The notes under the pieces were generated by a model, which saw only the letters and a list, made by a program, of their open reading frames with translations, had not been told where the DNA came from and did not search any database. Shown piece by piece: positions 7,954 to 15,799 of a stretch of DNA of 22,994 nucleotides; the first letter of the stretch is position 1, and each line of letters opens with the position of its first letter. Made by a program: the position numbers and the translations under genes. The DNA comes from a virus: positions 1-22,994 of the IMG/VR virus record IMGVR_UViG_3300035162_000404. The stretch is one strand, 5' to 3'.

Positions 7954-8481
7954 ATGGCAATTTTAGGCGTAGATGATTTTAAATCAAAGCTAGTAGGAGG
8001 CGGTGCTCGTTCTAACATGTTCAAAGTAACATGTAACTTCCCTGCTTATGCTCAAGGCGATGTTGAACTTTCTTCTTTCATGATTAAAGGCGCACAGTTT
8101 CCTTCATCAGTCGTAGCTCCTGTACCTGTATTATTCAGAGGCAGACAACTACAACTCGCTGGTGATAGAACTTTCGAACCTGTTACATTGACTATTATCA
8201 ATGATACTGGTTTTGAAGTAAGAAACGCGTTCGAAAGATGGATGAACGGTATGAGCGAACACAACAATAATACTGGAGCAAGTAATCCTACAGATTATAT
8301 GGCTGACATTATTGTTGAGCAGTTGAACAAGCAAGGAGACGTAACTAAGACTTACGATATGAGAGGTTGTTTTCCAACAAATCTTTCTACAATCGAACTT
8401 TCGTATGATAACGAAAACCAGATTGAAGAATTTACTGTTGAGTTACAAGTTCAGTATTGGGAGTCTGGAACCACTTCTTAG
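7954..8481 (+). CDS. 19: Tail tube protein gp19
   Basis: Major tube subunit. Characteristic blocks: start ILGVDDFKSKLVGGGARSNMF, QLAGDRTFEPVTLTIINDTGFEVRNAFERW around residues 70-93, and the C-terminal MRGCFPTNLSTIELSYD. 175 aa against T4's 163. AAGGAG lies 7-8 nt upstream. It shares the sheath transcript and is followed by a new late promoter. The 152 aa protein at 13468 is a clear relative. Confidence 0.95.
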   Translation: MAILGVDDFKSKLVGGGARSNMFKVTCNFPAYAQGDVELSSFMIKGAQFPSSVVAPVPVLFRGRQLQLAGDRTFEPVTLTIINDTGFEVRNAFERWMNGMSEHNNNTGASNPTDYMADIIVEQLNKQGDVTKTYDMRGCFPTNLSTIELSYDNENQIEEFTVELQVQYWESGTTS

Positions 8482-13467: not shown

Positions 13468-13926
13468 ATGACTACTTCAAATAAAAACTATTTAAGCCCT
13501 GTAGGGTTCCAATTCAAAATCGATGCAACTCAATATTCTAATGTTGAATACTTTTGTACATCGGTTACGCTTCCTGATTTAACGTTATCAGAAGTACCTA
13601 CTCCATATAAGACATCTAATATGGGAATGACCGGCGATCGAATCGCTTTTGGTGATTTACAGATTAGATTCAATATAACAGAAGATATGGAAAACTATGT
13701 TGAAATGTTTAATTGGATGCATAATATAATTCAAAAGGGAGAGTCATTTAAATCAGATGCTACACTTTCTATATTGAGTAGTCATAACAACGTAACTAAA
13801 GAAATAACCTTCAGAGATTGCTTTCCAACTTCTCTTTCAGCTGTTGAATTCTCAACTCAACAAAATGACATTGAATACTTACAAGCTGACGTAACATTTA
13901 AATATACATACTTTGAAGTGAAATAG
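13468..13926 (+). CDS. Second tail-tube-fold protein, probable tail tube terminator (gp3-like)
   Basis: 152 aa and plainly related to the tube protein at 7954: TGDRIAFGDLQIRFNITED...FNWMHNI aligns with AGDRTFEPVTLTIINDTG...FERWMNGM, and FRDCFPTSLSAVEFSTQQNDIEYLQADVTF with MRGCFPTNLSTIELSYDNENQIEEFTVEL. T4-like phages use tube-fold paralogs to begin (gp48, gp54) and end (gp3) the tube. From memory, marine T4-like genomes carry gene 3 between genes 23 and uvsY, the position seen here, so gp3 is the best candidate. I have not aligned it to T4 gp3. There is no SD within 13 nt of the ATG. Confidence 0.75.
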   Translation: MTTSNKNYLSPVGFQFKIDATQYSNVEYFCTSVTLPDLTLSEVPTPYKTSNMGMTGDRIAFGDLQIRFNITEDMENYVEMFNWMHNIIQKGESFKSDATLSILSSHNNVTKEITFRDCFPTSLSAVEFSTQQNDIEYLQADVTFKYTYFEVK

Positions 13927-14439: not shown

Positions 14440-14447
14440 TATAAATA
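14440..14447 (+). promoter_or_regulatory. Late promoter box TATAAATA before the 14508-14708 gene pair
   Basis: Perfect box; expected start near 14453 gives a ~55 nt leader holding a perfect 9 bp hairpin and the SD GAGGTA. It is also the nearest upstream box for uvsW. Confidence 0.8.
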
Positions 14448-14507: not shown

Positions 14508-14708
14508 ATGGCTATAGTTAAACCACACCACGCAAACAATTATTTATCAAATAGAATGGGTATACCGGCATTCGACGATACTCAAATGGTATATACTGGA
14601 GCACTACTTAGCTCTGTTATATATTCTTTGGGTGGAGTTGCGGTAGCTCAAGTAAATTATACGTACAACGCTGATGACGATATCATCAATATTACGAGGG
14701 TATCGTAA
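14508..14708 (+). CDS. Small hypothetical protein coupled to the 14708 gene (66 aa)
   Basis: SD GAGGTA and ATG at good spacing. The stop overlaps the next start as TAATG, so translation of the two is probably linked. The protein has a polar start (MAIVKPHHANNYLSN) and a weakly hydrophobic middle (GALLSSVIYSLGGVAVAQVNYTY), too polar to call a membrane segment. Unrecognised family. The junction suggests an accessory subunit, chaperone or attachment peptide for the large protein downstream. Confidence 0.72.
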   Translation: MAIVKPHHANNYLSNRMGIPAFDDTQMVYTGALLSSVIYSLGGVAVAQVNYTYNADDDIINITRVS

Positions 14709-15799
14709 TGTCCCATAATCAAGTTAACATAGTAAATTTTCAAAACGGTGATGTAGTACCATCTGCTATTATTGGACCAAAAACTACAGTAATTCAAAAG
14801 ACCGCACTGACAAAAACACTAATAGATTCCTTAACGCCTGTAACGCTTCCAGATATGACTATGGTCGGCAGAACTGGACATTTCCTTGTTTCTTTTAATG
14901 GTCAATTTACGATTAAAGATACTTCAAGTATAACAGCAAGCTCTGAAGTAGATTTGATAGCTTTATACGCAGAACTTACAGGTCTTACAGCAACAGTAAC
15001 AAATCACGCTGCGGTGTATGGTTCTGAAACTTTAGGACCAGGCGTATATCATCAGCCTGCTGCTTCAAGTATCGCAGGTAATTTAACTTTAGACGCTGGT
15101 GGTAATGCTAATGCATTATTCGTATTTCGATGTGTTGGAGCTTTTGCTACAGGAGCATCAACAGAAATAATACTAACTAATGGCGCAACTAGTAATAACG
15201 TATGGTTTGTGTCCGGAGGCGCGAGTAGTACTGGAGCAAGTACTATTATGAGGGGTAACCTATTAGCAAACCAAGCTGCTGCTAGTACTGGTGCATCTAC
15301 TCAAATGGAAGGCAGGCTTATGACTGTTAACGGAGCTGTTGGTATTGGAGCTACGAGCACATTCACAACTCCAACTGGAACTAGTGTATCGGATCTAGGT
15401 AGTTTTCTAAATGACTTTTCGATATTTGCTGGAGCTGGATCTATATCAAATACTGGCGCAAGTGTAATTTCAGGTAATATAGGTACTGACTTTGGTAGTA
15501 TTACTGGATTTGAAACAGCCACAGTAAATGGAATAATGTATCCTGGAGCACTTGCTTCTTTAGGCAAAGTATATTGGGGTATATATATTAATGGAACGCT
15601 AGCTCCACACACACAACGTTCAGCAACAAGATCGTATTTAGCTATTGGAACTGAATTCCCAATGATTTTAAGTTCAATGATAAGCGTAACAGCTGGCCAA
15701 ATAATTAGCATTAGAGCATATGCAACGATTGGTGAAGTACTAGTTGAACAATCTAAGACTCTTGTAATAGAACCAATTGCCAACGTTGCTTTCTTATAA
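14708..15799 (+). CDS. Composite virion-type protein: permuted ice-binding-like (DUF3494) domain inside a jelly-roll
   Basis: Residues 72-222 look like the C-terminal part of a DUF3494 ice-binding domain: DLIALYAELTGLTATVT, TLGPGVY (108-114), LTLDAGGNANALFVF (126-140), then a beta-solenoid with repeated TGAST turns at 148, 175 and 194 and GATST at 214. Residues 229-280 look like the N-terminal part: DLGSFLNDFSIFAGAGSISN, TGASVISGNIGT, SITGFETATVNGIMYPG. The order is therefore reversed relative to the family. Flanking segments 44-69 (LPDMTMVGRTGHFLVSFNGQFTI) and 285-356 (GKVYWGIYINGTLAPHTQRS ... EQSKTLVIEPI) read as two halves of a phage jelly-roll domain. No signal peptide. The late promoter implies a virion surface protein. 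Domain calls come from pattern recognition, not a profile search. Confidence 0.78.
   Translation: MSHNQVNIVNFQNGDVVPSAIIGPKTTVIQKTALTKTLIDSLTPVTLPDMTMVGRTGHFLVSFNGQFTIKDTSSITASSEVDLIALYAELTGLTATVTNHAAVYGSETLGPGVYHQPAASSIAGNLTLDAGGNANALFVFRCVGAFATGASTEIILTNGATSNNVWFVSGGASSTGASTIMRGNLLANQAAASTGASTQMEGRLMTVNGAVGIGATSTFTTPTGTSVSDLGSFLNDFSIFAGAGSISNTGASVISGNIGTDFGSITGFETATVNGIMYPGALASLGKVYWGIYINGTLAPHTQRSATRSYLAIGTEFPMILSSMISVTAGQIISIRAYATIGEVLVEQSKTLVIEPIANVAFL

Follow-up and report, generated by a model that had tools for sequence, protein, structure and literature searches.

In the tandem ice-binding protein IBPv (5uyt), the coils of the DUF3494 β-solenoid are stacked in the order b1-b6-b5-b4-b3-b2 (PMC5673226), and a tabulation of the family assigns alignment positions 5-30 to the top rows and positions 71-180 to the bottom through to the sixth row (PMC12337378). 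In the canonical domain, the N-terminal part of the sequence (N-part) precedes the C-terminal part (C-part). In the literature we searched, no paper joins DUF3494 with phage, bacteriophage or circular permutation. Here, we considered a virus sequence (IMG/VR record IMGVR_UViG_3300035162_000404, positions 1 to 22,994, hereafter the window, 22,994 nucleotides in all) which encodes a protein, P0001, where the two parts come in the reverse order and lie within a second domain. We regard P0001 as probably a late virion adhesin, in which a jelly-roll carries a permuted DUF3494 solenoid and binds the host cell surface.

The window carries the late structural genes of a T4-like phage, with a major head protein 60-61% identical to those of Pelagibacter phage HTVC008M and phage C48C1. 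The P0001 gene (14708..15799, + strand, an ORF of 363 amino acids; locus copy L005) is flanked by uvsY and uvsW; at this site C48C1, a related phage, has no gene, and that of HTVC008M is unrelated. The stop codon of a 66-aa partner gene, orf66 (14508..14708, + strand), overlaps the P0001 start (TAATG), and approximately 60 bp upstream of these two genes lies an intergenic T4-type late promoter motif, TATAAATA (14440..14447, + strand). Exact copies of this motif number 14 in the window, versus 4.1 expected, a count reached in 0 of 100 shuffles; it occupies the same place in the near-identical locus L002, and lies directly upstream of the orf66 homologue in L061. Late expression, already suspected in the sequence-only reading, is what this motif match predicts for the pair. 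The permuted gene keeps an orf66 homologue as its neighbour in L001/L002 (95%), L061 (56%) and L092 (35%), and the two remain together even where other neighbours differ; as judged from this gene order, they behave as a mobile two-gene cassette. orf66 has no PHROGs family and no Pfam family above cut-off, and is perhaps a chaperone or an anchor. A distinct tail-fibre protein of the window is encoded at 73-1152, and the late region also holds two gp19-like tail tube genes (7954-8481 and 13468-13926), as does that of C48C1.

All segments of P0001 lie on the + strand. An N-terminal segment of low model confidence (residues 1-26, 14708..14785), which by eye resembles those of L061 and L092, is followed by the first half of a predicted TNF/C1q-like jelly-roll (J1, residues 27-72, 14786..14923), delimited by structure alignment and a J1 family profile. 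Next come the DUF3494 C-part, with the α-helix and most of the solenoid coils (residues 73-222, 14924..15373), and a linker, TGTSVS (residues 223-228, 15374..15391), which bridges the former C and N termini; in the alignment of this linker, TP... and SV are kept in the first three relatives. The N-part, the first part of a canonical domain, is here downstream of the C-part (residues 229-279, 15392..15544), and the protein ends with the second half of the jelly-roll (J2, residues 280-362, 15545..15793), placed by family profile and predicted model.

The Pfam profile PF11999 (ice-binding-like, DUF3494; curated cut-off 28.7 bits) matches P0001 with 102.6 bits (E 3e-29); of the two matching stretches, the stronger one aligns residues 64-215 to profile positions 47-204, so the prospect of a DUF3494 match in neither order can be set aside. 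To avoid circularity, separate profiles for the two parts were made solely from canonical-order proteins: the C-part profile scores 92.0 bits at residues 74-215, versus 12.2 bits for the best of 2000 shuffles, and the N-part profile 24.8 bits at residues 235-277, versus 9.9 bits. As these scores stand far above those of the shuffles, both parts are genuine, and with the C-part at 74-222 and the N-part at 229-279, P0001 departs from the canonical order. This is mirrored by a rotation test, in which the domain was shifted one residue per step and each rotation scored as one alignment: the score rises from 83.7 bits in the native arrangement to 97.1 bits when the domain starts at residue 218. The optimum falls at the same junction in 19 of 22 permuted proteins, P0001 included (the exceptions are L062, L076 and L101); in the 14 canonical viral controls the optimum always lies at rotation 0-3, and rotating never adds more than 1.8 bits. 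The swapped halves that had been noticed from the sequence are thus confirmed by the canonical-only profiles and the rotation test together. The check proposed at the time, a PF11999 search with the parts exchanged, succeeded in producing one continuous stretch (profile 4-204), but the total hardly increased (100.8 versus 99.3 bits, for a construct that deviated from the native sequence by one or two residues at its start), since HMMER adds both stretches in the native order. The spacing of 19 residues once taken as a sign of successive coils holds for one interval between the TGAS(T) motifs, which begin at residues 148, 175, 194 and 249: it separates 175 from 194, but the other intervals are 27 and 55.

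The AlphaFold2 model of P0001, built from a 31-sequence alignment, has a pLDDT of 90.3 and a pTM of 0.73, with residues 1-22 below 50; a model from P0001 alone (pLDDT 30) was discarded. By VIA-align, residues 73-224 superpose on solved ice-binding proteins, 5uyt giving a Z of 20.3 and 7bwy a Z of 19.4 (149 residues, rmsd 1.3). With a helix at 75-91, and 144-154 residues fitting solved DUF3494 members at an rmsd of 1.1-1.6 (essentially the C-part alone), the C-part is predicted to be a right-handed β-solenoid with a bracing α-helix. The flanks tell a second story: over residues 27-362, the model aligns with the TNF-like lectin 9ib9 (Z 15.2, 122 residues, rmsd 2.0), with 2wq4, another TNF-like lectin (Z 15.1), and with the exosporium jelly-rolls 8d02 (Z 14.0) and 1wck (Z 12.1). 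The lectins PLTL and BC2L-C are the nearest jelly-rolls to 27-72 plus 280-362 (Z 15, approximately 120 residues), and BxpB, ExsF and BclA follow with Z 12-14 across model ranges of roughly 22-362, that is, with both halves used. Since only about 129 residues lie outside the insert, an alignment of 122 needs both halves; this supports the prediction that 27-72 and 280-362 jointly form one TNF/C1q-like jelly-roll. The model, at pLDDT 90, therefore agrees with the earlier proposal of a solenoid nested in a single jelly-roll built from both flanks, rather than with an ordinary linear fibre; the two halves had been correctly located at 44-69 and 285-356, but their bounds prove slightly longer.

The jelly-roll assignment of P0001 draws on this model and on weak profile matches in its relatives. 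No Pfam family matches the jelly-roll of P0001 itself, even with the halves joined, and P0001 is absent from the 5 of 15 members in which the joined J1 and J2 halves match BclA_C (best E 1.6e-4). In one relative, L066, BclA_C is matched at E 0.042 with the halves joined, and the second half by itself has no match. A profile of the joined halves found no solved structure in a sequence search of the PDB, and no unsplit homologue among the viral loci; a contiguous match of 16 bits at residues 411-520 of L256 makes this protein a plausible sequence candidate for the unsplit version. Weaker contiguous matches in L255 and L257 (9-10 bits) were rejected on inspection. Foldseek against predicted viral structures returned only diffuse full-length matches for the P0001 model. 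Two giant-virus proteins in BFVD, A0A481YXR3 and A0A481Z347, align over 341 columns to the nested model at 8-9% identity, and may represent another solenoid within a jelly-roll.

How could a solenoid tolerate such a rearrangement? In solved relatives the first coil lies against the last, so a chain that runs from coil 6 on into coil 1 and is opened after coil 1 has its coils in stacking order; by analogy, the permutation would render the solenoid continuous along the chain. The old N-terminal coil of P0001 would still cap the last coil, as it does in solved relatives, and the new solenoid ends, which were once linked by a peptide bond, would sit adjacent to one another on the jelly-roll. Ends that were formerly joined are close together, which suits loop insertion, and we envisage that the loop after the strand at 57-71 was replaced by the circularly permuted solenoid. 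The sequence-only reading went further, holding that the permutation served to allow the insertion. On this point we disagree: DUF3494 domains of canonical order occur as inserts in phage sheath-type proteins too (L191, by Pfam; L084, by eye), which rules out permutation as a requirement. Insertion is feasible in either order because the termini are near each other in space.

Seven IMG/VR scans, followed by profile classification of every ORF, recovered the order J1, C-part, N-part, J2 in 23 distinct viral sequences, a count that includes the copy in the window and two near-identical ones; none of the approximately 48 canonical-order viral DUF3494 proteins is bracketed by the jelly-roll halves. 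In L077 and L141 the nested module is the C-terminal tip after collagen-like stalks, in L071 virion and tail-spike repeat families come before it, and the N-terminal segment of L004 is common to many phage loci. P0001 is short, and neither a fibre stalk nor a known attachment domain is recognised in its annotation; residues 1-26 could possibly act as an attachment segment. P0001 had no tblastn match at E 1e-3 in 50,697 phage genomes, and a search with the L004 domain gave one chance match only; in plasmids, all matches were partial, covered the C-part region and fell mostly in proteins annotated as ice-binding family. Beside the full copy in L071 lies a protein of 155 aa (L071:7087-7551) in which the helix, N-part and J2 are kept and the C-part coils are lost, by its sequence a natural deletion form. 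Elsewhere, the viral contigs L026 (7056-9590) and L056 (7062-9662) encode proteins of around 850 aa with two well-separated canonical DUF3494 domains, and viral-classed contigs L097-L100 encode permuted DUF3494 proteins with lipoprotein-like starts and flanks unlike the TNF-like halves.

The permuted domain is also found in a contractile-tail sheath protein (L078:4294-7155; PHROG tail sheath, E 1.7e-25), and comparable inserts occur in L104:3661-6606, where the sheath likeness was judged by eye, and in L190:4488-7337, where sheath families were examined by Pfam only. Did these arise once? A tree of 92 domains unites the 25 fibre-type viral permutants in a single clade (support 98), to which the tandem Flavobacterium domains are sister in this first sample, and the permuted domains of L078, L104 and L190 are placed among canonical sequences. 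A single clade for all permutants is rejected by the AU test (p-AU 0.004), and it is therefore likely that there were at least two permutation events, each of them likely to have proceeded via duplication and trimming. In a larger tree that includes bacterial permutants, the backbone is unresolved, phage and bacterial sequences are mixed, and some canonical domains fall inside. P0001 aligns to the tandem protein IBPv straight through its two-domain boundary at ~33% identity (phmmer), and the family profile, which includes two tandem rows, scores 224.9 bits on the boundary-crossing stretch of IBPv versus 144.7 bits on the second domain's own C-part. Most likely, the permuted module would have derived from tandem ice-binding proteins of Bacteroidota, through a duplication after which the outer parts were lost, and would since have passed between phages and bacteria.

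The nested module is specific neither to this phage nor to phages in general. Profile searches of Bacteroidota genomes found the full architecture on chromosomes in 1 of 296, 3 of 397 and 8 of 199 (one genus), and the surroundings of one such gene (L208) consist of ordinary chromosomal genes, with no prophage. The bacterial proteins have starts that by eye resemble signal peptides, mostly followed by a VGIGTxTPDxSSILDLxSxxKGLLxPRM segment. They also occur in arrays of paralogues, with at least 12 copies over three contigs of genome G693 (L262, L263, L264), four in a row in G851 (L265), and a further array in G827 (L266). These arrays of secreted nested proteins could possibly constitute a diversifying family of surface adhesins, and the distribution as a whole suggests that phages and Bacteroidota draw on one exchangeable sticking device.

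What would such a device bind? That relatives sit at the tips of fibres, that the jelly-roll is of lectin type and that bacterial surface arrays have diversified all argue for cell-surface binding, and the earlier proposal of a virion adhesin has become the probable one, given that relatives (L077, L141, L071) carry the tail-fibre stalks or attachment fusions which P0001 lacks. The jelly-roll would assemble as a trimer, placed either on the virion surface or at a fibre end, with three solenoids pointing outward, and the solenoid faces, the jelly-roll interfaces, or both would bind a glycan or protein of the host surface and so aid attachment. Could the solenoid instead be a true ice-binding site, with the virion or a released protein held on ice or on brine-channel walls, near sea-ice bacteria? 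We consider this unlikely, even though the closest kin among canonical proteins are the tandem ice-binding proteins of Flavobacterium, one of which, IBPv, has measured antifreeze activity, and the equivalents of the IBPv ice rows in P0001 (row 1, A145, A172, A191, A210 and S245; row 2, A147, S174, S193, G212 and S247) are small or hydroxyl residues with no bulky one among them. Row 2 is mostly T/S in a clade of 11 phage sequences; however, the same columns are N/G/A in another phage clade (L071, L076, L077), ice-site rows diverge strongly among true family members, which makes a residue match weakly informative, and ice-free habitats commonly hold DUF3494 (PMC12337378). A broader version, in which three permuted solenoids on a lectin-type trimer at a fibre tip hold particles on ice near their hosts, and Bacteroidota use these tips as adhesins for ice or surfaces, with exchange between virus and cell, seems to us more doubtful still.

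It is equally improbable that the solenoid has no ligand of its own and acts as a rigid spacer or decoration, stiffening or shielding the fibre tip: structural proteins have repeatedly taken up the domain, among them the tail sheath of L078, which is not a receptor-binding part, yet in fibres the solenoid occupies the C-terminal tip, and it is diversified in the Bacteroidota paralogue arrays as would be expected of a binding device. Finally, the notion that there is no working permutation, only the remnant of a tandem pair with the C-part of one domain and a useless N-part of the next, is very unlikely: tandem canonical proteins do contain exactly this collinear stretch, but the N-part is kept with near-invariant residues in approximately 50 phage and bacterial proteins, is modelled in P0001 at a pLDDT above 90 over most of its length, and none of the J1-J2 members has either an N-part ahead of its C-part or another complete C-part behind it.

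To conclude, a known domain has been permuted and nested within a fold that is itself known, and this arrangement is recurrent and common to phages and bacteria. Fibre and tail-sheath permutants share one cut point and a common origin for them is rejected, which provides a natural test of permutation by duplication and trimming; an adhesin tip common to phage fibres and Bacteroidota surface proteins implies that host range and bacterial attachment may share a pool of modules. With DUF3494 proteins such as IBPv, P0001 shares both sequence parts, the solenoid with its α-helix (in the model) and small residues at the ice-site rows, but its parts are reversed, it lies within another domain, it has no signal peptide, and ice binding is only a candidate function. 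The sheath insert of L078, and likewise those of L104 and L190, has the same permutation point as P0001, whereas its host fold is another one and its domains are nearer to canonical phage and bacterial domains than to the fibre permutants. The secreted Bacteroidota proteins (L208, L239-L269) match P0001 in the complete nested architecture, and differ in being chromosomal, in their signal-peptide-like starts, in often forming paralogue arrays, and in having another N-terminal stalk. As for the flanks, they superpose as one jelly-roll (Z 12-15) on TNF-like lectins, namely the N-terminal domain of BC2L-C and PLTL, and on the exosporium proteins BclA, BxpB and ExsF; at 8-15% identity, P0001 stands apart from these in that its jelly-roll is split by an insert of approximately 205 residues.
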